64,000 nucleotides of DNA, taken from a virus. The notes below the pieces were generated by a model, which searched no databases, was not told where the DNA came from, and worked only from the letters and a program-made list of their open reading frames with translations. The position numbers were made by a program, and so were the translations under genes. Within the stretch, counting starts at the first letter, position 1; each line of letters begins with the position of its first letter. The stretch spans positions 122,088-186,087 of IMG/VR virus record IMGVR_UViG_3300023116_000009; one strand, written 5' to 3'. This document shows, one piece after another, positions 5,697-41,173 of this stretch.

Positions 5697-8444
5697 TCAT
5701 CTAGCGATGACTTCAGAGAAGTCGATACCAGTTCTAGTAGCAGTAAATGTGAGAGTAATGAAGTTGATAGAACGGGCAGGTTGAATATAAATTTCTGCAA
5801 CAAATTCATTGTTGTCAATGACGTTTGCAGTGTTGTTTGTCTCGTCGCAAACAACTAAGAAGTCGGTGATGCCTCTTCTTGACTGTACATCGCGGAGGAA
5901 TGGTTCAACGATTGCTCTGAAAACACCTCTTGTGGTTTCGTCGTTGATTTCAAACAGTTGTGCTTTTGCTGCTTCCTCAATTGCTCTCTCAACAACAAGG
6001 AACAGTTTGCGAACGTTAATTCTATCAAACGCCGATGGAGTTGACAGTGCTGTCTTATCACCAAAGAGAACTGCACCTTGACCTGGGAAGGTTACGATAG
6101 GATTGATTCTATTCGCATAGAGTTCATCTCTATCTGCTTTGCCTGGATTCCAAGCAAGTTTTGCCAGATTGCGGATACCACCTCTAGAGAAACCAGCAGG
6201 TGAGAACCATGCTTCATTTCTAATAGTAGTATCTGCGACAAGACCAGCAACGTCGGTATTGCAAGGAATATACTTATAAACGTCGTTCCAACGATCATAA
6301 ACATACTTGTAATTTCCATCAATGACAAGATATGAATTGCTAGCAACATCTGAGAAGAAGTCCTTCAGGTTTCTAGTAATTTGAGAACTTGCGATTTGAG
6401 TTCCGTCAGCAGAAACAATATTTGAAATATGTGCAGAACCGAATGCAATACAGTCCTTTCTCTCAGCAGCAATAGATGCAATCTTATTCAGTTTTGATTT
6501 GGTGTCCTCTTCAGTCAAACCTGAAGGACCCATCAGAATATAATCAATAGTGATGTTTTCTACATCTCTAAAGATATCGTATCCAGCGTTCAGATCTCCA
6601 ACTGAAACCTCATATCCACTACCAGTGCTTGAGTAGTTTACGCCATTTGCAAGAGCGTATGATTTTGTACCTTTTGGTTTAAATCCTAATGGCGCTGTCT
6701 TTGTTTGATATTCATACAGAGTGTCTCCTGCATAAACATAAGCAGAACCTTCGGAAACAATTCTCTTATAGAAGTTTGCTCCGCCCTGTGCTCCTCTACC
6801 ATCAGTTGCTTTAGAAGCATATCTGAAAGTTTCGAGAACAGTATCTTTAGCACCACTTACAGTTCCATCTACGTCAACGATTGCAACGTGAACTGCATCA
6901 TAGACATTCATAGAACCATAGAACTCTTCTCCGTCTGCAGTTGCTTTTGGTCTTGCGGCAACAGAATTCCACTTAACAGATGAACCAGGATAGAGACGTG
7001 CCTCTAAGTACCACTCTTCACCATTGGATACACTTTCAACAACGCTAGTTCCTGAAGTACCAATGGTTACTGAATCTGCAGCAGCAAACAGTTGACCAGC
7101 AGATGGTGTGTTAACATAAGAGTCATCTGCTACATCTAAAATTACAATATGTACCAGAGTTTGACCAGCAGCATTTGCTCCTACTTCAAGAACCTCTCCT
7201 TTCTTTTGACCAACACTTACAAAATCTCCAGATGCAATATTTGAAGCAGTACCAGGAGAACCTGCAGTAAGGGTCAATGTTTGTTGAGGACCGTAGTCAA
7301 CGGTGCAAACTCTCAGTCCATTTGCCCAGGTTCCTGCTGTTCTACCTGCATACAACCAACCAGAAGTGTTTCCACTATAGGATGCTTCATAAACTTCGTT
7401 ATTAGCAATCTTGATTGGATCTGCAGAAATAGCTGAAGTTGCTGTTGCAACTACGCCAGGAGGTGGTTCAACTGGGTTTAAGTTTGAGAATCCAGTGTAA
7501 TCACCAAAGTTAGTAACAGTGACACCAGTTACAACACCTGCAGGACTTACATCCAGAGTGCCAGAGAATGGAGTGTTTGCAGTACCACCACTGACGTTCA
7601 ATGTATAAGTTGCTTCGTCATCATAATTTGTACCACCAGAAACAACAGAAACTTCGAGTCCAGTTGGAGCACTAAGTGTGATTGTTGGAGCAGAAGTATA
7701 ATTTTCTCCACCAGTGATTGAGATGGAAGTAACTACACCGTTAGTAATTACTGGAGTAGCAACAACAGTTGCTGGGTCTCCACCACCACCAGTTACGGTG
7801 ACAGTTGGTGCAGATGAATAACCAGAACCACCGTCAGTAACGGTTAAGTTTCCAGTCAATGCACCAGCAGCAACGTTTGCCCCAGACGCAGTTGCCGTTG
7901 CGGTGCTTCCTTGTGCAGCACTTAAAATGCAAGTATCGCCAACAGCAGCAATTGTTACAGCAGGAGCAGATTGATAACCGTTACCAGATTGGGTAACAAC
8001 AATAGCAGTAACTCTTCCTTCTGCATCAAGAACTGCAGTTCCCTGTGCTTGGGTTCCGCCAGCAGGAGGAGCAGCAAAAGTAACTGCAGGAGCAATTACA
8101 TACTTACCATTTGTTTGTGCATTGGTTACTGTTACTGAAGAAACAGAGTTGCCCTGTCTTGCTACAGCGTTTTTGAGGTCGGCATCATCAGCTCTTACAA
8201 CTGAAAGGGTGCCGCCATAGTTTAAATAGTTAACAGCAGAAAGAAAATAATCTGCATTGTACTGATTGGGTTCACCAAATGCAGAGATTAAACCTGCTTC
8301 TGAATCGATGGTAATTGGTGATCCAAGTTCGCCCTTTGCAAAAGGACCAACAAAAGCAGCGACGTTTGCGTTTGCAATACTTGCCCTTCCGTTTGTAAGA
8401 TCCTTTTCTCTAATAACAACGCCTGGTGAGCGTAAAGTTGCCAT
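5697..8444 (-). CDS. 18: Tail sheath protein gp18 with large repeat insertion
   Basis: This is the contractile tail sheath protein. The N-terminus (MATLRSPGVVIREKDLT) and the C-terminal half are typical of T4-type sheath; LFGDKTALSTPSAFDRINVR and the RGVFRAIVEPFLRDVQSRRG block form the polymerisation core. The product has 915 residues against 659 in T4. The excess is a Thr/Gly/Ala/Val-rich block at about residues 101-335 with repeats such as GSGYSSAPTVTVTGG and NYTSAPTITL. Removing that block leaves about 680 residues, close to the normal length. The block would probably protrude from the outer surface of the sheath. TAGGAG lies 6 bases before the ATG and an AATAAATA octamer lies 38 bases upstream. 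Confidence 0.96.
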   Translation of the reverse strand: MATLRSPGVVIREKDLTNGRASIANANVAAFVGPFAKGELGSPITIDSEAGLISAFGEPNQYNADYFLSAVNYLNYGGTLSVVRADDADLKNAVARQGNSVSSVTVTNAQTNGKYVIAPAVTFAAPPAGGTQAQGTAVLDAEGRVTAIVVTQSGNGYQSAPAVTIAAVGDTCILSAAQGSTATATASGANVAAGALTGNLTVTDGGSGYSSAPTVTVTGGGGDPATVVATPVITNGVVTSISITGGENYTSAPTITLSAPTGLEVSVVSGGTNYDDEATYTLNVSGGTANTPFSGTLDVSPAGVVTGVTVTNFGDYTGFSNLNPVEPPPGVVATATSAISADPIKIANNEVYEASYSGNTSGWLYAGRTAGTWANGLRVCTVDYGPQQTLTLTAGSPGTASNIASGDFVSVGQKKGEVLEVGANAAGQTLVHIVILDVADDSYVNTPSAGQLFAAADSVTIGTSGTSVVESVSNGEEWYLEARLYPGSSVKWNSVAARPKATADGEEFYGSMNVYDAVHVAIVDVDGTVSGAKDTVLETFRYASKATDGRGAQGGANFYKRIVSEGSAYVYAGDTLYEYQTKTAPLGFKPKGTKSYALANGVNYSSTGSGYEVSVGDLNAGYDIFRDVENITIDYILMGPSGLTEEDTKSKLNKIASIAAERKDCIAFGSAHISNIVSADGTQIASSQITRNLKDFFSDVASNSYLVIDGNYKYVYDRWNDVYKYIPCNTDVAGLVADTTIRNEAWFSPAGFSRGGIRNLAKLAWNPGKADRDELYANRINPIVTFPGQGAVLFGDKTALSTPSAFDRINVRKLFLVVERAIEEAAKAQLFEINDETTRGVFRAIVEPFLRDVQSRRGITDFLVVCDETNNTANVIDNNEFVAEIYIQPARSINFITLTFTATRTGIDFSEVIAR
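7440..8144 (-). repeat. GSGY-type repeat block inserted in tail sheath gene
   Basis: This stretch codes for about 235 residues of gp18 made of imperfect units with the core (G/S)GxGYxSAP(T/A)(V/I)T(V/I). The clear units are GNGYQSAPAVTIA, GSGYSSAPTVTVTG and GENYTSAPTITLS, with degenerate copies after them. The same unit type appears in gp8, the gp7-like protein and the giant fibres. Boundaries are approximate. Confidence 0.8.
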
Positions 8445-31921: not shown

Positions 31922-34900
31922 TTATCTCTTAACAGTGTGGGAAACGATCTTAATATTGTATGTAGTTCTGTTCTCAATAGCAGAGGCAAAACTTACAGTT
32001 TCATCTGCAGATGCAGAAATGTTACTGGTTGTAGAAGCACTGGTAACAAAGATATCATGTAAATCACCATTGCCATCTGCTCTAGTTCCAATAAAGATTA
32101 CATCCAAATCACCAGCATTGAGTAGATTGCCATCATAATTAACTGGTTGATCTAATGCTGCATAAGTTCTGGATCTGGAGGTATAACTTAAAGTATCACC
32201 ATCAGCAATGATAACACCTTGAATATTTTGCTCTCCATCATTAGTCGAGGAGTAATCCAACGCTACGTTGAACAAGAATTGCCCATCTGCAGGATTGCTT
32301 GCTACACTGAAGATTTCAGAATCAATACCAGTAGAAACTACTAATCCAACTTCTGACAGATCACTCAGATCATAATATCTTGCTTGAATTTGAGAAGTTG
32401 AAGTATCATAGTACATCTTCAATACTCTGGTCGTTCCAACTACTGCCCACTGAACACCATTACCAGAACCGATACCAACAGTGGTTACTGCAGTTAATGT
32501 TGAACCATTAACAGAATACTTTCTAACTACTCCTGAAGTAAAGTTTACATATAAGTAAGTGCCGTCAGTAAATGCATCTTGCAGTCCAGTACCACCAAGT
32601 AATAGAGATGGGGTTGACCAAGATACGCTATTAGTAGAACCGCCAGTGACAGTTCCGTTTACTTGATATACTCCAGAAGTAGTATGATAAACAATAATCA
32701 TTCTTCCATTAACACTCAAGATTCTGCATGTTCTTGCATCTCTACCACCATTTAAGCTATAAATCAGAATACTATCAGAGGTAAATGTGCCAAGCGATCC
32801 AAATGTGATATTACTATTATTAGGGTCTACGTCCCCAACAATATAATCTCCACTGTTTGACGCCCATACGATTCTATTTGTTGCAGAATCAAATGCCATA
32901 GAAGCATGATCAGAATTGCCAGTAGCAGTTAACGGAATTTGTGTGCCAAAAACAACACCATTATCACTTACTGTACCAACTCTAAATCCACCAGTAGCGA
33001 AATTGGCATTGTCATTGGCATAAATTACAACTCTATCTGCATCGGTATCAATAACTGATGCAATATTTTTAGTAAAGAATGTTGAAGACGTAATATCTGC
33101 AGATCTTTCTGCTGCAACAGGAATGTAAGTATCTGTTGCACTTCCAAGTTCGGTAACTCTTACTTGAACATTTGAACCTGACAGATCTGCTTCAATGTCA
33201 GCAAGAACTACATCAGTATACAATTTATTACTTTCAGTATAAATGATATCTTCACCATTACCTCTGATTAAGTAAGAAACTTCAGAGTATTGCTTTCTTG
33301 GATATGCATCTGGAATTGGGAACTGCTCTTCAACCTCAACCATAAATTTACCTGACCATGCTTCTGCCCATGGGAACATAGTTGCAGAAACAATGTTACC
33401 AGCAGCAGCATCTAAAGTAGATGTTTGAGTAAAGATCTTAGTGTTTGCAAGTTCCAGTTTTTGAAGACCTGCATCAAGAACAGTTAAGTAATTGTCTGCA
33501 GTAGAAGAGAATCCTCTATTGATTTGCAGAGCACCACCATTGGTTAACTTAAGAAGTTGATAAGAATCTGAAGATGCTGGTTCAAATCCAAATGTCAATG
33601 CGTCTCTATCAGTTTTAATGATTTCGTCAGTTGCACTAGAAGTAATCTCTAATTGATTAGTGCTAATAGTGAACTTGCCATTAACATTTAAGTTGACATT
33701 ATCAACATTGGCGTTCAAATTATCATATCTGTAAGACCAATATTCAAGATTATCAACAGTTCCTGATGTGTGGGTTGGAGCAACAGTTCCTGTAGTGTGA
33801 TCAGCAGTAATCCTATAAAGATTATCACCTGAGTAAATATATTGCTGAACAGTCAGAACATCATCAAGATCTGCTGTAAACTGAGTTACATCAGTTTCTG
33901 GAGTCCATTCAATACTGTTTCCTTCAGCGTTAGAATTAATAGTGTTGAGAGTATCAAGATTTAACTCAGTTTGACTTACTCTTAATGTTTGAGTTCCGTC
34001 ATTAAAGAACCAAACATTATTATCATCATTACCAGGAGATCTCTCACCGATTACAAAAGTATTTCCATCAACGTCTCTTACACCACCGAGAGAAACAAAG
34101 TAATTTCCATTGTATCCTTCAAATTGATTTCTGTCAGTATTATATCTTACAGAACCTTGAAGAGGACCACCAGGGCGATTTGCATCAGTACCGACAGGAA
34201 GTGCAAGTGCTCCAGTTCCACTAATTACAACTTGAGAATTTGCCTCAGCACTTAATGTTAAATCGCCAGCAGTTGTTGAAATTGTATTATTGTTGAGTAA
34301 CAGTGTAGTTGCAATTTCAACGCCATCAGGAGATGCAACGAGTTTCTTAGCAGTGACTACACCATCTACAGCATCAAACTGAATATTATTAAATTCAGCA
34401 AGAGAATTGACTGTCAGGGAGAATCCTGCAGGGAAGTATCCATTATGAGCAATAGTTGCAGTTCCATTTGTTACAGAACTTGCAATGGATGATACTGTAA
34501 AGTTAGCGCCAGAACCATTAGTCAATGATTGGACAACAATTGTAACCGTGGTTGGATCATCTACAGGATCTCCACCCTCTTCTGGATCGCCACCGCCACC
34601 GCCACCAAACAGAGAACCATCAAATTCAATCAGTTCACCAACTTGATAACCAATACCATTGGAAAGAATTACTGCAGATGAAATATTTCCAGTAGCATCT
34701 GATGTGAATCTAATTAAAATATTTGCACCTGTTCCACTAGTTCCAGTTTGATTCAAATCGTAAGTTTGTGTGTCACCATATGCACCATTATCACCACCGC
34801 TTGCAATAGCAATTGTTGCAGCACCCGTATTGATATAGTCATTATCCAGAGTAAATGCATCCCCGACTTGGAATAAATCACCAGAGAGATTGCCACTTGG

Positions 34901-37900
34901 ACTAATAGAAGTTACTGTACCCGCACCATTGGTGGTAATGTCTACAAGAAGACCAGTTCCTTCACCAGTGGTTGCTTCACATTGAACGCCTTCAATTGTT
35001 GCACCTGAAGGATAACCAGAACCACCACTAACAGTGTTGATACCAGAAACGCCATCTTGTCCAAATGATGGAACTACAGTTCCAGTGGTTCCAGCGCCAG
35101 TTACTTCATATGCGTACTCACCAGCATAAAATTCTTGTCCAACACTTACTGCTGCTTCTGTTGGGAATAGTGTAAACCCAAGTGCTGCAGCGTCATAGTA
35201 ACTTGATGGAAGATCAAGAACGTCATCTACAGAATAACCAGCACCGAGGTCAACAACATTTACATATGAGACCGAATTCAATCTCTTTACAGTATATTCT
35301 ACTGGAACTGCTGGAGCAGAAATTGTTGTTAACAGACCTGAAGTTGGATCAGTATACTGCATGTCTGTGTAGTTAACTGTGAGAACATCTCCAATTAAAT
35401 ACCCAGAACCTGGAGAAGTAATGTTAAATTCAGTAACAACTCCACCTTCAACCAAAATCCTTGCTTGTGCATTAGAACCTGTTCCTGTAGCACCGATATT
35501 ATTAACTCTAATAGCGAACCCAGATCCAGTAGACACAGTTTGTGCTGAGAATGCTGCACCTGAACCATATGTTACTGATGCAATATTAATCTGTCCAACC
35601 ATACTTGCATGGTTACCACAAATATAATAATAAGTTCCAGGAACTGTTAAAGAAGTATCAAAACTTACAGTGCCACTTTCTGCACCATTATTAGTTGCTG
35701 GGAGAACATATGCAGCGTTAAATCCATTAGTTTGTGCATCTAATTGAGATACCAAATAGAATGGGTGACCAGCAGCACTTACTGAGAATGAAATAGTATC
35801 TCCAAGGTTTACATTGATACTTGGATTGCTTGCACTGGTGTATGTGGTGTTTCTATCATCACCACTAATTACATAGTTAGTGCTACCATTGTTTGTAACT
35901 GTATATGTGAATGTCAGGTTTTCATACAGGTCTGAATCTGCAACAGTAAAGGTATCAGAGGTTGTATATCCACCACCACCTTGATTAACAGTTGCAGACG
36001 TTACAACTCCACCAGACACTACAACGTTAGCAGTAGCACCAGATCCAGAACCTAACGTGTTTACTAACGCAACATCACTATAAGTACCATCTGGATAACC
36101 AGTTCCTGCTAAAGAAACTCCAAGAGTTCCAGAAAGTTTACTTCCTCCAACATTAGCAGTATCAACACCAAGAAGATCCGATACTGCATATCCAGAACCT
36201 CTAGAGTTAATAACAACAGAAGTTACTTGACCATTTTCAATAGTAAAGTCGCCTGTTGCTGAACTTCCAGTTCCTGCAGTAAGAGCAACGTTGAAATAAG
36301 TTCCATCAACATACCCACTACCTGGGGTGAGTGTTCCAAATACAGTGATTGCACCAGATGCAACACTTACATACTGAACTGGAACGTTTAAATATTCCTC
36401 ATTATAATAACCAGATCCTGGTTGTGTAATATTACCAGTAAACGCAACTGTTACATTTGCAGTAAAGTCAGCGCCAGTACCACCTCTGAAAAGAACATTA
36501 TTAGTAGTGCCAATTGTATATCCTCTACCTGGAGTAATTGTATATTCATCAATTGCTTTATTGATTAAATCTACTGGTTTGAAGAAACTAATCTGCTGAG
36601 TAGTTTGCTTCATGATAGGACCATTATATCCTACCGTAGTAATTTCATTAAGATTGCTCTTATAGAAACCAAGTTTTTCGTCGCTATCAAAAGTAATTGA
36701 TGGAGCAATCTCTGTGCCATCATTAACTAAAATTCTACCATCAAATCTACTATCACCAGTTACAGTAAATTTCTCATCAAATGTAGATGAGATGTCATCA
36801 GGTCCTGGATCAGTTCCGATGCTTACAACCGATCCAGCATCAGTTGCTAAGAATACGTGATTATAAATTTTAGCGGTGCTATTAACTTCAAATGTATAAT
36901 CTTCAATGACTACTGGGTCTGTGGGTCCTAAGATACTAACTTTATTATTAGTAGCATCAATTTGGAGCAGATCGGTGTCAAATGCTACACTTGCACCAAT
37001 CTGTGATGGATTATTTGGATCTCCAACTACGGTCAATCTACCGTTTGTACCAAGGTCTCCTTGGACAGTAAGGTTGCCAGAAGTTCCAATGCCACCAGAA
37101 GCAGTTAATGTACCACTAACTGTAAGATTCTGAGCACTAACTGTTGATAAAGTTGTTGTTCCAAGTGCTGAGAAATTTTCATTGACAGTAACGTTGGTAT
37201 TGAATGTACCACCTTCTGCGGTAATATTACCTGTTTTTGTCAGCGAAAGGAAGTTTTCTAATAATGCTGTACCAATAGCAATGGATCCATTTTGACCATA
37301 CTCGGTATCTGCAGTAGTGTCAATGGAGTTGCCCATTCCAGAGTGAATGGTGCAATAGTAGTATAGAGTTCCTGGAGTATCACCAGTTACAATAATATAA
37401 GCACCGTTGTTACCATTTAATGGTCCAGATAACGTAGTATATGCTGTTCCACCATTATGAATACCATCATTAGTTTCTGAGATTGTAAATGGATGATCAG
37501 CGTATGTTGCCGTATATGTTGCGTCTGGAGTGACTGTAAATCTGTAAAGTGTATCCTTATTTAAAGTTAAAGCAGGCGCTTCTACATATCCACTACCAGT
37601 GTTAATCCAGTAGGCATTACCACCACCGCCAGATTTGGGGCGAATCTGAACATTGTATGTTACGGTTGTACCAATACCAACCAGGGTATCATTGGAAGCA
37701 AGTTCAAAGTAAGGTTGAACTAATTCACCTGATAAATATCCTTCACCTGCAAGTGCATCATCTGTTCCTTCATCAACAATATTGGCACTGCTCAGGAATT
37801 GAATATTGCTAAATTCAAATACAAATCCATTTCCACCACCAGGAACAGTTGCAGTAATTGCATCTCCAATAGTATATCCAGTTCCACTCCAAGTTCCAGA

Positions 37901-40900
37901 TGGAGTAACAGAAGTTACAGTATATGAATTTGACGGTACAGTATATGCAAATCCAGCACCACCACTAGTAAATTGATTTCCTTCTTCATCGAAGTAAATC
38001 AAATTCGAATTGTTTATTGTCAGAGTATCACCAGCAGTATACCCACTATCGCCATCATCACTAATATTGATCTCAGTAACTACTCCACCGCTAACAGTAA
38101 CAGTTGCTACTGCTCCTGTTCCTGTACCTCCATTTAAAGGTACTGTTGCATAAATGTTATCAGTGTATCCAGAACCACCAGTAATTGTACCACCTGAAAT
38201 ACCTTTTACCGTTACTGTACCAGTTCCTCCAGTACCAGTTCCTGTTTGTTGGTTTTGACCTTGAACATTTGTAAATGAAAGGTTATTATAAACTCCTGCA
38301 ATATAACCAGAACCTGCTTGAGTTACTTGACCAGCGAATGCAGTTACTGTTACATCAACTCTAAGACCAGTACCCGATCCTCCAGTAACTGGAATATTGG
38401 TATATGTTCCAGGAAGGTATCCAATACCTGGAGTACCAACAGAAACTGTTTCTGGAATTGAAGATGAGATATTAATATCAGTAAGAGATCTTACTTCACC
38501 AGGAGCAATTCTTAATACAGATCCACCATTAGAAACTAAATCATAGTATCCATCTCCAAGATCAATTGGTTTTCTAATACCAGTATCTTGATCACCATCA
38601 AATGCCAAAGAAAGGCGAGTGCTTCCAGAAGTAAAGGTTTCCAGATTAACTCTTTGATTCAGATTAATCTCATTACCAGTAAATGGTGTCAGGTTAATAT
38701 TACCTGAAGTTGTAGAAATCGTATTACCGAAGAAGGTAAACGCACCGACCTCAATGGACGTTGGAAGGATCGTGGTGGTGTCTGAACCAGCAGATACGAG
38801 CAATTGGTCAAAACTAGTTCCAGCGCCTGCTCCAGCGCCTCCAGACCCAGCAAAGGAAAGGGTTCCCTTCTCTTGGTCAACCAGGAAAAGATCGCCTACA
38901 CGGAAGTCGCCACTCTGGTCAACAGAGGTAAAGAATACACGACCATTATTTTGTTCAATGACTTCGTTTGACTGTACAACCAAACTAACGTCGTTATTAT
39001 CATCCTTACCGACGCCAATGTATCCAAAGTTATGACTGATAAGACGTAAACTTACACCCTGACCATTTGCACTAGCACCACGCTCACCATAAACGTTTGC
39101 AGATGCAATTGAGCGAAGTTCTGCACCAAACTTGGTATAATCTGCAAGGGTTACAAATGTTGCAGTTCCGCCAGCAGTGGTTCTAACATCTTGAGCAACA
39201 ATACTATCATCAACAAATACAGCAGCACCATTTGTGCCCTCCATATGGAGCAGCAGAGCAGTATCATTATCTGCTAAAAACTGAACTGTGGTTGGTGTAA
39301 ATGCTGCGTTATATCTTGAAGAACCCTTAGTTACTCTAACTTCATCAATATAACCATTCAATCCAGCACTTCCATCATATGCTGCACCAATTGTTAAACC
39401 TCTTGTTGGGAAGTCATTACCGTCAGTGTAACTAGAACCAACTTGAGTGCCGTCTACGAATAACTTACTTACGCCAGAAGTTCTTGAGAGTGCAATATGG
39501 TGCCAAGTAGATGCAGTTAATGCAGCAGAACCTGTGATTACAGCAGCGCCATTAACATAATATACAAGATCTGATCCAGAAATATTAACTACTGGTGAAA
39601 TTTCTGTTGGTGATGCTGATCTAAAGTCAAAGATAGTTTTAGCACCAGAAGTATTGTTGAGGTAGATAAATGCTTCTAATGTAAATTCGCCAGTACTAAA
39701 GTTGAAATCTGGATCTGATGGTACTGTTAATCGATCATCAGTTCCATCAAATGCTGCAGAAGTTGAACCAAGTTTAACTTGAGTTGTGCTGGTTACTACA
39801 TTGTCAACTGCAGAAACATTCTTACCTGTTGTTTCGTCAGTTGCAATGATACGACCTTCACCTTTTCCATCCAAATATACATAAGTACCATCATTTTCAT
39901 CAATGGTTCCATAACCACTGGTCTTTAAATAGTTTAAGTTACCAGCACTTGCAGTGCCAGCAAAGATACCATCAATGACAAAACTATTGCCTGTCGTTAC
40001 TGATGTAATTTTATGGAATTCTGTTACACCACTCTGAGCGCCAGAAGTAGTATTGATGTAGACAAGATCCCCTTGTGCCAGTCCATGACTGGATGAGGTG
40101 ATCGTCATTGTTAAATTATCATCTGCACCACTAGTTGTATATGCAGCAGTTACTTGAGATACGCCTGCTTCAATTAAACCAACTTGGTTACCAGATCCAG
40201 CAGTAAAGTCGCCAGATTCCCCTTGGAGATTCAGTCGAGTTCTCGCTACTCCACCAAGACCAGTACCACCGTCTGGACTTTCTCCTAAAATACCATCTTG
40301 TGCATAATATGTGAATGAGTTTAACCATTCACAACGAGCACCATTTTTAAGATATAAACCAACTGAATTAGGTACAACAAATGTACACTCATTGAAAAGA
40401 ATGGATGCTTCAATAGTGCTTGAATTGGCAACAGAACCATCAATTAAGGCACCTCTACCAGCATCACCTTGATTATAACCTCTAGGATCGGATGCAGAAG
40501 TTACAGAACCTTTTGTGAGGACACTGACTCTCTCAATATAAGGTCTTCTTTCAGTAAGAGTAAAGTTTGATGCTAATCTGAAACCATATCCAGTATCATT
40601 AGAAGCATTATAGTAGAAGTTTCTAATGGTAATGTCTTCAATATTAGCATTACCGAGAAGAAGGAAGCAGTCAAGATCTTGAGTGGCAACGGTTGGTTGA
40701 ATAAAAACAGATTTAATTCCACGTCCCTTAATAGAAACATCAACTGGTACGGTTAATGGAAACTCCTCAGTGTAAGTACCACCTTCAACTACAATAGTAT
40801 CACCCGCTTGAGCAAAGTTCTCAAGGGCATACTTGAGTGAAGCAAATGCGGTGAACTCTGTTGCACCCCATGCGTTTGCCCCTGTCGTTGACCCATGGCG

Positions 40901-41173
40901 GGGATTGGCAGAACCAATTGTTGCTTTGTCAGTACCATTTGCTGATACAAACCAAGTATTTCCAACTCCATCTGTGATGGAACTGGAAAGCATTGATGGA
41001 ACGATGGTTTCATCGTTCGGGTCAGCATTCAAAACCTCCCTGATAGTACCGCCGTCATTGATAAACAGCGATCTATCATTAATATTAAGAGCTACCTCTC
41101 TATCTGAAAGGTCACTTATCTGGGGTACTGAATTCGGAGTCGTTGAACTCTTGAGTTTGATTCTGCTTGCCAT
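31922..41173 (-). CDS. Giant tail fibre protein with cupredoxin and LamG domains, 3083 aa
   Basis: This is a giant modular fibre or adhesin. Modules in order: N-terminal attachment motif (MASRIKLKSSTTPNSVPQIS then DREVALNINDRSLFIND); a pectate-lyase-like helix (about 65-330); a LamG jelly roll (about 465-630; FDGTDDRLTVPSDPDFNFST); GSGY-type repeats (about 900-1110); a cupredoxin-like domain (about 1199-1287); more GSGY repeats (about 1500-1740); a second cupredoxin-like domain (about 1762-1865); further repeats (about 1920-2100); a PTHTSG module (about 2450); and a C-terminal propeller-like region (about 2690-3000). Its start overlaps the upstream small coiled-coil gene by 62 bases. It lacks the C-terminal cap found in the other two fibres. 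Confidence 0.88.
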   Translation of the reverse strand: MASRIKLKSSTTPNSVPQISDLSDREVALNINDRSLFINDGGTIREVLNADPNDETIVPSMLSSSITDGVGNTWFVSANGTDKATIGSANPRHGSTTGANAWGATEFTAFASLKYALENFAQAGDTIVVEGGTYTEEFPLTVPVDVSIKGRGIKSVFIQPTVATQDLDCFLLLGNANIEDITIRNFYYNASNDTGYGFRLASNFTLTERRPYIERVSVLTKGSVTSASDPRGYNQGDAGRGALIDGSVANSSTIEASILFNECTFVVPNSVGLYLKNGARCEWLNSFTYYAQDGILGESPDGGTGLGGVARTRLNLQGESGDFTAGSGNQVGLIEAGVSQVTAAYTTSGADDNLTMTITSSSHGLAQGDLVYINTTSGAQSGVTEFHKITSVTTGNSFVIDGIFAGTASAGNLNYLKTSGYGTIDENDGTYVYLDGKGEGRIIATDETTGKNVSAVDNVVTSTTQVKLGSTSAAFDGTDDRLTVPSDPDFNFSTGEFTLEAFIYLNNTSGAKTIFDFRSASPTEISPVVNISGSDLVYYVNGAAVITGSAALTASTWHHIALSRTSGVSKLFVDGTQVGSSYTDGNDFPTRGLTIGAAYDGSAGLNGYIDEVRVTKGSSRYNAAFTPTTVQFLADNDTALLLHMEGTNGAAVFVDDSIVAQDVRTTAGGTATFVTLADYTKFGAELRSIASANVYGERGASANGQGVSLRLISHNFGYIGVGKDDNNDVSLVVQSNEVIEQNNGRVFFTSVDQSGDFRVGDLFLVDQEKGTLSFAGSGGAGAGAGTSFDQLLVSAGSDTTTILPTSIEVGAFTFFGNTISTTSGNINLTPFTGNEINLNQRVNLETFTSGSTRLSLAFDGDQDTGIRKPIDLGDGYYDLVSNGGSVLRIAPGEVRSLTDINISSSIPETVSVGTPGIGYLPGTYTNIPVTGGSGTGLRVDVTVTAFAGQVTQAGSGYIAGVYNNLSFTNVQGQNQQTGTGTGGTGTVTVKGISGGTITGGSGYTDNIYATVPLNGGTGTGAVATVTVSGGVVTEINISDDGDSGYTAGDTLTINNSNLIYFDEEGNQFTSGGAGFAYTVPSNSYTVTSVTPSGTWSGTGYTIGDAITATVPGGGNGFVFEFSNIQFLSSANIVDEGTDDALAGEGYLSGELVQPYFELASNDTLVGIGTTVTYNVQIRPKSGGGGNAYWINTGSGYVEAPALTLNKDTLYRFTVTPDATYTATYADHPFTISETNDGIHNGGTAYTTLSGPLNGNNGAYIIVTGDTPGTLYYYCTIHSGMGNSIDTTADTEYGQNGSIAIGTALLENFLSLTKTGNITAEGGTFNTNVTVNENFSALGTTTLSTVSAQNLTVSGTLTASGGIGTSGNLTVQGDLGTNGRLTVVGDPNNPSQIGASVAFDTDLLQIDATNNKVSILGPTDPVVIEDYTFEVNSTAKIYNHVFLATDAGSVVSIGTDPGPDDISSTFDEKFTVTGDSRFDGRILVNDGTEIAPSITFDSDEKLGFYKSNLNEITTVGYNGPIMKQTTQQISFFKPVDLINKAIDEYTITPGRGYTIGTTNNVLFRGGTGADFTANVTVAFTGNITQPGSGYYNEEYLNVPVQYVSVASGAITVFGTLTPGSGYVDGTYFNVALTAGTGSSATGDFTIENGQVTSVVINSRGSGYAVSDLLGVDTANVGGSKLSGTLGVSLAGTGYPDGTYSDVALVNTLGSGSGATANVVVSGGVVTSATVNQGGGGYTTSDTFTVADSDLYENLTFTYTVTNNGSTNYVISGDDRNTTYTSASNPSINVNLGDTISFSVSAAGHPFYLVSQLDAQTNGFNAAYVLPATNNGAESGTVSFDTSLTVPGTYYYICGNHASMVGQINIASVTYGSGAAFSAQTVSTGSGFAIRVNNIGATGTGSNAQARILVEGGVVTEFNITSPGSGYLIGDVLTVNYTDMQYTDPTSGLLTTISAPAVPVEYTVKRLNSVSYVNVVDLGAGYSVDDVLDLPSSYYDAAALGFTLFPTEAAVSVGQEFYAGEYAYEVTGAGTTGTVVPSFGQDGVSGINTVSGGSGYPSGATIEGVQCEATTGEGTGLLVDITTNGAGTVTSISPSGNLSGDLFQVGDAFTLDNDYINTGAATIAIASGGDNGAYGDTQTYDLNQTGTSGTGANILIRFTSDATGNISSAVILSNGIGYQVGELIEFDGSLFGGGGGGDPEEGGDPVDDPTTVTIVVQSLTNGSGANFTVSSIASSVTNGTATIAHNGYFPAGFSLTVNSLAEFNNIQFDAVDGVVTAKKLVASPDGVEIATTLLLNNNTISTTAGDLTLSAEANSQVVISGTGALALPVGTDANRPGGPLQGSVRYNTDRNQFEGYNGNYFVSLGGVRDVDGNTFVIGERSPGNDDNNVWFFNDGTQTLRVSQTELNLDTLNTINSNAEGNSIEWTPETDVTQFTADLDDVLTVQQYIYSGDNLYRITADHTTGTVAPTHTSGTVDNLEYWSYRYDNLNANVDNVNLNVNGKFTISTNQLEITSSATDEIIKTDRDALTFGFEPASSDSYQLLKLTNGGALQINRGFSSTADNYLTVLDAGLQKLELANTKIFTQTSTLDAAAGNIVSATMFPWAEAWSGKFMVEVEEQFPIPDAYPRKQYSEVSYLIRGNGEDIIYTESNKLYTDVVLADIEADLSGSNVQVRVTELGSATDTYIPVAAERSADITSSTFFTKNIASVIDTDADRVVIYANDNANFATGGFRVGTVSDNGVVFGTQIPLTATGNSDHASMAFDSATNRIVWASNSGDYIVGDVDPNNSNITFGSLGTFTSDSILIYSLNGGRDARTCRILSVNGRMIIVYHTTSGVYQVNGTVTGGSTNSVSWSTPSLLLGGTGLQDAFTDGTYLYVNFTSGVVRKYSVNGSTLTAVTTVGIGSGNGVQWAVVGTTRVLKMYYDTSTSQIQARYYDLSDLSEVGLVVSTGIDSEIFSVASNPADGQFLFNVALDYSSTNDGEQNIQGVIIADGDTLSYTSRSRTYAALDQPVNYDGNLLNAGDLDVIFIGTRADGNGDLHDIFVTSASTTSNISASADETVSFASAIENRTTYNIKIVSHTVKR
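35579..35890 (-). other. Cupredoxin-like domain 2 with complete type 1 Cu ligand set
   Basis: Residues about 1762-1865 of the 3083-aa fibre read as a cupredoxin: NPSINVNLGDTISFSVSAAG then HPFYLV (His1803), and YYYICGNHASMVGQI (Cys1852, His1855, Met1858). The spacing C-x2-H-x2-M is that of amicyanin. Fold and copper binding are inferred from the motif. Confidence 0.75.
37313..37579 (-). other. Cupredoxin-like domain 1 with complete type 1 Cu ligand set
   Basis: Residues about 1199-1287 of the 3083-aa fibre: NKDTLYRFTVTPDATYTATY then ADHPFTIS (His1227), and TPGTLYYYCTIHSGMGNSI (Cys1274, His1277, Met1280). The spacing C-x2-H-x2-M equals that in the second copy. Confidence 0.75.

Follow-up and report, generated by a model that had tools for sequence, protein, structure and literature searches.

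Putative cupredoxin domains with type 1 copper ligand sets in a giant tail protein of a marine cyanomyovirus

Why would the tail of a marine virus carry what look like copper sites? The question is raised by a very long gene in a stretch of viral DNA of 64,000 nucleotides (hereafter the window, bases 122088-186087 of a virus record that is 186,087 bases long), for which an earlier note had described two amicyanin-like domains within a single tail fibre. The window contains genes for terminase, portal, tail sheath, neck and baseplate proteins. The nearest named relatives of these structural genes belong to marine Synechococcus and Prochlorococcus T4-like phages and, therefore, the virus is a cyanomyovirus; psbA, talC and petE-type genes are found elsewhere in the record, outside the window. 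The tail sheath gene (5697-8444, minus strand) encodes a protein of 915 amino acids in which the sheath match is restricted to the C-terminal part, the long additional N-terminal part matching other structural families. The features of the giant gene are as follows (window coordinates):

31922-41173, minus strand: gene for the baseplate-wedge/tail-fibre protein that carries D1 and D2 (3083 aa, ATG start)
34425-38473, minus strand: GSGY-type glycine-rich repeat segments flanking D1 and D2 (read from the translation)
37322-37660, minus strand: predicted cupredoxin domain D1, approximately residues 1172-1284 (AlphaFold2, Foldseek, hhalign to the D2 family)
37334-37495, minus strand: D1 ligand set H1227, C1274, H1277, M1280 (C-x2-H-x2-M)
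37493-37495, 37352-37354, 37343-37345 and 37334-37336, minus strand: D1 ligand codons for H, C, H and M, respectively
35576-35896, minus strand: predicted cupredoxin domain D2, approximately residues 1760-1866 (Pfam PF00127, AlphaFold2, Foldseek)
35600-35767, minus strand: D2 ligand set H1803, C1852, H1855, M1858 (C-x2-H-x2-M)
35765-35767, 35618-35620, 35609-35611 and 35600-35602, minus strand: D2 ligand codons for H, C, H and M, respectively

The N-terminal ~860 amino acids of the 3083-aa protein match two families of baseplate wedge subunits, phrog_32294 (E 2e-229) and phrog_13163 (E 5e-199), instead of phrog_677, the cyanophage gp9 connector, which was not matched at E 0.01. These matches bear out the virion tail or baseplate location that had been assumed for the protein. 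Pfam detects a Laminin_G_3 domain at residues 476-615. Beyond its baseplate-wedge part, the protein is a long repetitive fibre with GSGY-type segments at around residues 901-1200, 1540-1745 and 1865-2250, between which lie D1, D2 and a non-repeat stretch; the glycine-rich repeats previously noticed beside the domains do flank both of them. The 3083 residues include just 7 cysteines, two of them being those of the C-x2-H-x2-M motifs. Among the 24 minus-strand ORFs checked in the window, all the others lack a C..H..M-type motif, and, in the record as a whole, cupredoxin searches gave no match other than D1, D2 and a distinct plastocyanin gene. Another virus contig (L003) encodes an orthologue of the protein in which the two domains are retained with their full complement of eight ligands.

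The translation confirmed the eight ligand residues at the positions given in the earlier note, with a complete His/Cys/His/Met type 1 set in each domain. The interval proposed for the pair (35579-37579) does hold the domains but clips D1, which extends to about 37660. D2 is recognised by Pfam as a Copper-bind domain (PF00127; E 6.7e-6 and 27.8 bits, which exceeds the curated cut-off of 21.2 bits). D1 is more divergent than D2 and is not recognised by Pfam alone; it was joined to the D2 family by profile-profile comparison (hhalign 99.9%, E 1.4e-33) and was also matched by profiles of phage relatives, with E 2.7e-10 for alignment A2 and E 3.4e-33 for alignment A3, the latter value coming from an alignment that includes D1 itself. 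Several phage domains in A2 and A3 also score weakly against the Pfam family At5g54830-like (PF25489), hinting that this plant domain family may be distantly linked to cupredoxins.

AlphaFold2 yielded confident models for D2 (pLDDT 97.5, pTM 0.89, using an alignment of 60 viral relatives as input) and D1 (pLDDT 90.0, pTM 0.83). The best PDB fold matches of D2 in Foldseek were rusticyanin (E 2e-5), auracyanin, plastocyanin and amicyanin, together with azurin variants containing an engineered CAAHAAM loop. For D1, the top match was SO1698, another beta-sandwich, and rusticyanin came next (E 1.2e-3). In a viral structure library, the best matches were predicted tail, fibre and gp9 proteins of marine phages. 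The cupredoxin fold anticipated for both domains is upheld by structure prediction, Foldseek and profile comparison, and the models leave us with very little doubt about it. A chance motif is ruled out by the fold, the Pfam match and the conservation among homologues. In our view, D1 and D2 are almost certainly true cupredoxin domains inside a virion tail/baseplate protein, each with its type 1 copper ligand set intact.

To what kind of copper protein are these domains related? Like the PF00127 blue copper proteins (plastocyanin, azurin and amicyanin, as well as rusticyanin and auracyanin), D1 and D2 have a predicted Greek-key beta-sandwich, a Y-x-C motif, a Met axial ligand and an N-terminal His ligand located 47-49 residues ahead of the Cys, but they are modules, internal or terminal, of large virion proteins and not soluble carriers. 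The phage domain has an invariant His-Pro, whereas plastocyanin and amicyanin carry His-Asn at this position. The label 'amicyanin-like' holds for the short C-x2-H-x2-M spacing, which amicyanin shares, but not for the nearest relative by sequence or fold: rusticyanin leads the Foldseek matches, and nitrite reductase and plastocyanin lead the profile search of solved proteins; a true amicyanin is rejected by these comparisons. Moreover, the loop residues are small or polar in the phage domains and Pro or Phe in amicyanin, and the phage domains have no methylamine dehydrogenase context. Bacteroidota and Thaumarchaeota also have cellular proteins with the C-x2-H-x2-M spacing, which is therefore not diagnostic of amicyanin.

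The longer C-x2-H-x4-M loop of plastocyanin is not found in D1 or D2. The virus does possess it in its separate plastocyanin gene, petE, outside the window (G000:C1:75421-75666; L001:1495-1818), which encodes a protein of 107 aa and lies near psbA and a transaldolase-like gene, so that one phage has two kinds of cupredoxins. Cyanophage petE is well known (PMC3037559). Its product is, as D1 and D2, a type 1 copper protein, but it is a stand-alone secreted protein and shows no close similarity that would make it their source: only the C-terminal motif aligns with D2 (33% over 30 aa), and an origin from the phage's own plastocyanin is not supported. The complete type 1 ligand set is a hallmark of electron-transfer cupredoxins and, together with the real plastocyanin gene of the phage, could suggest that D1 and D2 form a plastocyanin- or amicyanin-like redox module acting on the host envelope. 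We consider this very unlikely, since the genome already has a separate C-x2-H-x4-M plastocyanin, to which D2 aligns over 30 residues only, the neighbourhood of the fibre gene showed no gene for a redox partner, and a virion fibre has no obvious source of electrons.

The closest cellular relatives that we found came from marine Bacteroidota and were either portions of large secreted proteins or small cupredoxins that are secreted or lipoprotein-like. Several of these proteins (in L183, L164, L168 and other loci) matched the profile of the phage domain along its entire length with 115-117 bits, among the highest scores of cellular-type sequences, and share the C-x2-H-x2-M loop, but they are not virion proteins. 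As for the two domains themselves, the earlier note saw them as two diverged copies under selection for metal binding. Selection for the ligand set is supported across relatives (see below), but local duplication is not, each domain being closer to those of other phages than to the other one. They belong to different subfamilies and are placed apart in the domain tree, where D1 falls in a set of 30 phage domains, with 98% SH-aLRT support, from which D2 is absent; this rejects a recent tandem duplication.

What had been described as a feature of a single fibre, where the domains are indeed present, is actually a module common to hundreds of marine phages. In single-sequence translated searches, 62 of 50,697 phage records had a relative of D2 and 77 had one of D1, and three consensus queries, one per subtype and written from the family alignments, matched 38, 72 and 332 records. 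Nearly all the records found with these three queries are Synechococcus and Prochlorococcus phages and unnamed marine viruses; one lake actinomycete phage was also among the matches, and the D1 type occurs in Pelagibacter and Methylophilales phages as well. The 332-record subtype is the gp9 type, among which are 256 Synechococcus-named and 54 Cyanophage-named records, compared with 377 and 61, respectively, carrying a terminase like that of this phage. The terminase query also recovered many enterobacterial T4-like phages; none of these was among the gp9-type records. A search for the domain in plasmids gave no match.

The position of the module varies between phages. The baseplate wedge tail fibre connector, gp9, has the T4 gp9/10 domain (PF07880, T4_gp9_10_N) at its N-terminus and, in P-SSM4 and ACG-2014d, the module at its C-terminal end. 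Elsewhere, the module terminates fibre-like proteins in ACG-2014j and S-H9-1, is internal to fibres in P-SSM2 and P-HM2, lies within an annotated virion structural protein in S-TIM5 and close to the tail-fibre end in the pelagiphages HTVC028P and Baldr, and is near the start of fibre-like proteins in two cyanopodoviruses. The C-terminal ~95 residues of cyanophage gp9 belong to the same cupredoxin family as D1 and D2, with the same loop, and phrog_677 takes in this domain as its C-terminal end, but gp9 is annotated as a connector only and Pfam reports no copper domain there; in the window, by contrast, the domains are inside a 3083-aa fibre. PF00127 matches 52 of 60 family members. Some virus-contig proteins have four to six copies of the domain; fibre proteins with five or six occur in L072, L132, L069 and L050. 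In L010, L042, L070, L101 and L143 a shortened domain directly trails a full one, and strands may be shared between them. Two loci from contigs titled Euryarchaeota MAG (L184 and L185) encode proteins matching marine phage cupredoxin fibres, with L185 closely resembling the virus locus L086, and may be phage sequence within archaeal bins.

The 3083-aa protein has the attributes of this marine phage fibre/baseplate module, namely the profile match, the H-P pair, the Y-x-C-x2-H-x2-M motif and the tail/baseplate location. D1 and D2 are thus members of a large marine-phage domain family, of which the C-terminal domain of cyanophage gp9 is the best representative. In the open full-text literature covered by our search, we found no description of cupredoxin domains in phage structural proteins, and the PDB sequence matches included no solved virion structure containing the domain.

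If the fold alone mattered to these phages, the metal ligands would be relics of a cellular ancestor in a plain structural beta-sandwich devoid of metal. Members without ligands do exist, apparently with the fold kept. Nevertheless, the ligand columns are the most conserved of the family, whose sequences are elsewhere only 25-50% identical, and losses tend to be joint, so we regard such a metal-free sandwich as quite improbable. In a 60-sequence alignment, the only invariant columns were H, P, Y, C, H and M, the two that are not ligands being the Pro following the first His and the Tyr two positions before the Cys. Across 209 domains, H, C, H and M were present in 183, 189, 186 and 177, respectively, and the set was complete in 164; most homologues keep it, as in 132 of the 152 non-redundant domains. 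This collection was retrieved with degenerate DNA patterns and, because one of them demands the Cys, the count was redone on domains found outside the patterns. Of these 46 pattern-independent non-redundant domains, 29 had the four ligands (16.3 expected if losses were independent) and 10 had one or none (1.8 expected), a one-or-none count that was reached in 0 of 10,000 permutations. A survey keyed on gp9, using six gp9 peptides of which five lie outside the metal loop, found C-x2-H-x2-M in all 24 domains of gp9 and neighbouring ORFs.

Only one of the ~23 domains in 19 isolate-phage loci was without the site: in Synechococcus phage S-B43 (L206:3413-5758), the Cys has been lost together with the two His ligands while the remainder of the domain is kept. 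About a dozen lineages, including this one, have the fold with an incomplete site, which implies that the metal is dispensable in some fibres. Axial variants of the C-x2-H-x2-Q and C-x2-H-P-E-A types are found in L117, L128, L055, L137 and L042, and in L090, L105, L129, L131, L133 and L136; in complete domains, the Gln and Ala variants retain the Cys and both His. Stellacyanin naturally has Gln as its axial ligand. On the tree of the 152 domains, there are about 13 changes between a complete and an incomplete ligand set. The co-loss statistic fails under strict control for relatedness, which leaves only 3-5 phylogenetically independent pairs; almost every way of pairing agrees with joint loss, but the pairs are too few to reach significance. 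These patterns strongly suggest selection for the site and are suggestive of joint loss of the ligands. A metal-competent site appears highly probable.

From ligands and predicted fold, we strongly infer that the domains would bind a metal; the AlphaFold2 models of D1 and D2 contain none. Cupredoxin-type sites hold copper tightly or, when no copper is available, zinc. Copper is rather likely to be the ion present in the native virion. Free copper is very scarce in the cytoplasm, the site of virion assembly, and type 1 sites formed there can take zinc or stay empty, so that another metal, most likely zinc acquired there, might be carried instead. We find this rather unlikely, as type 1 copper sites typically have Met, or Gln in its place, as a ligand, and copper displaces zinc from such sites upon exposure to seawater.

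What could a probably copper-bound domain do in a tail? As the most likely explanation, we propose with moderate confidence that the beta-sandwich would be an exposed bead on the fibre, in which the N-terminal His and the C-x2-H-x2-M loop would coordinate a single metal ion, probably copper. The metal would staple the loops at one end of the sandwich, making one face rigid, and the gp9 connector or the fibre might use this face for fibre-fibre or fibre-host contacts. The attachment role is read from location only, namely the recurrence of the domain at fibre and baseplate positions, and a function of the metal-clamped face in attachment or architecture is a tentative hypothesis to which we give slightly less than even chances. 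The ligand-free minority fits a scaffold that can be retained without metal.

A precedent for metal in phage tails is found in the fibres of T4 (gp37) and alterophage R22Y, which bind iron at HxH motifs (PMC11705849). D1 and D2 resemble them as parts of a phage tail fibre predicted to hold a metal, but the iron is octahedral and located between fibre chains, whereas the Cys/His/Met site would lie in a globular domain of a single chain. A Trojan-horse idea has been published for iron (PMC11705849), and a copper counterpart of this Ferrojan hypothesis can be envisaged, in which copper at the fibre or gp9 tip would be a lure recognised by a copper ligand or uptake receptor of the host surface. 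The confinement of the modules to phages of marine and aquatic hosts, living where trace metals are scarce, would be in line with it. However, no host copper receptor has been linked to these phages, the domains of the 3083-aa protein are internal to the chain and not terminal, and the copper site is buried in most cupredoxins; a lure thus seems unlikely. We attach a similarly low probability to the broader view of marine phage particles as copper metalloparticles, in which copper-loaded cupredoxin beads on connector and fibres would act in host recognition or infection triggering and would also constitute an uncounted pool of strongly bound copper in seawater.

Returning to the metal-stapled bead, the presence of such domains has a consequence for annotation, as Copper-bind matches in viral contigs can be fibre domains and not stolen photosynthesis genes. 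Cyanophages and pelagiphages are among the most numerous marine viruses. If our reading is right, virions with such a conserved copper-site module in connector and fibres would themselves be metalloprotein assemblies. The module would also indicate a metal-dependent step in adsorption or assembly, and virus particles may carry protein-bound copper.
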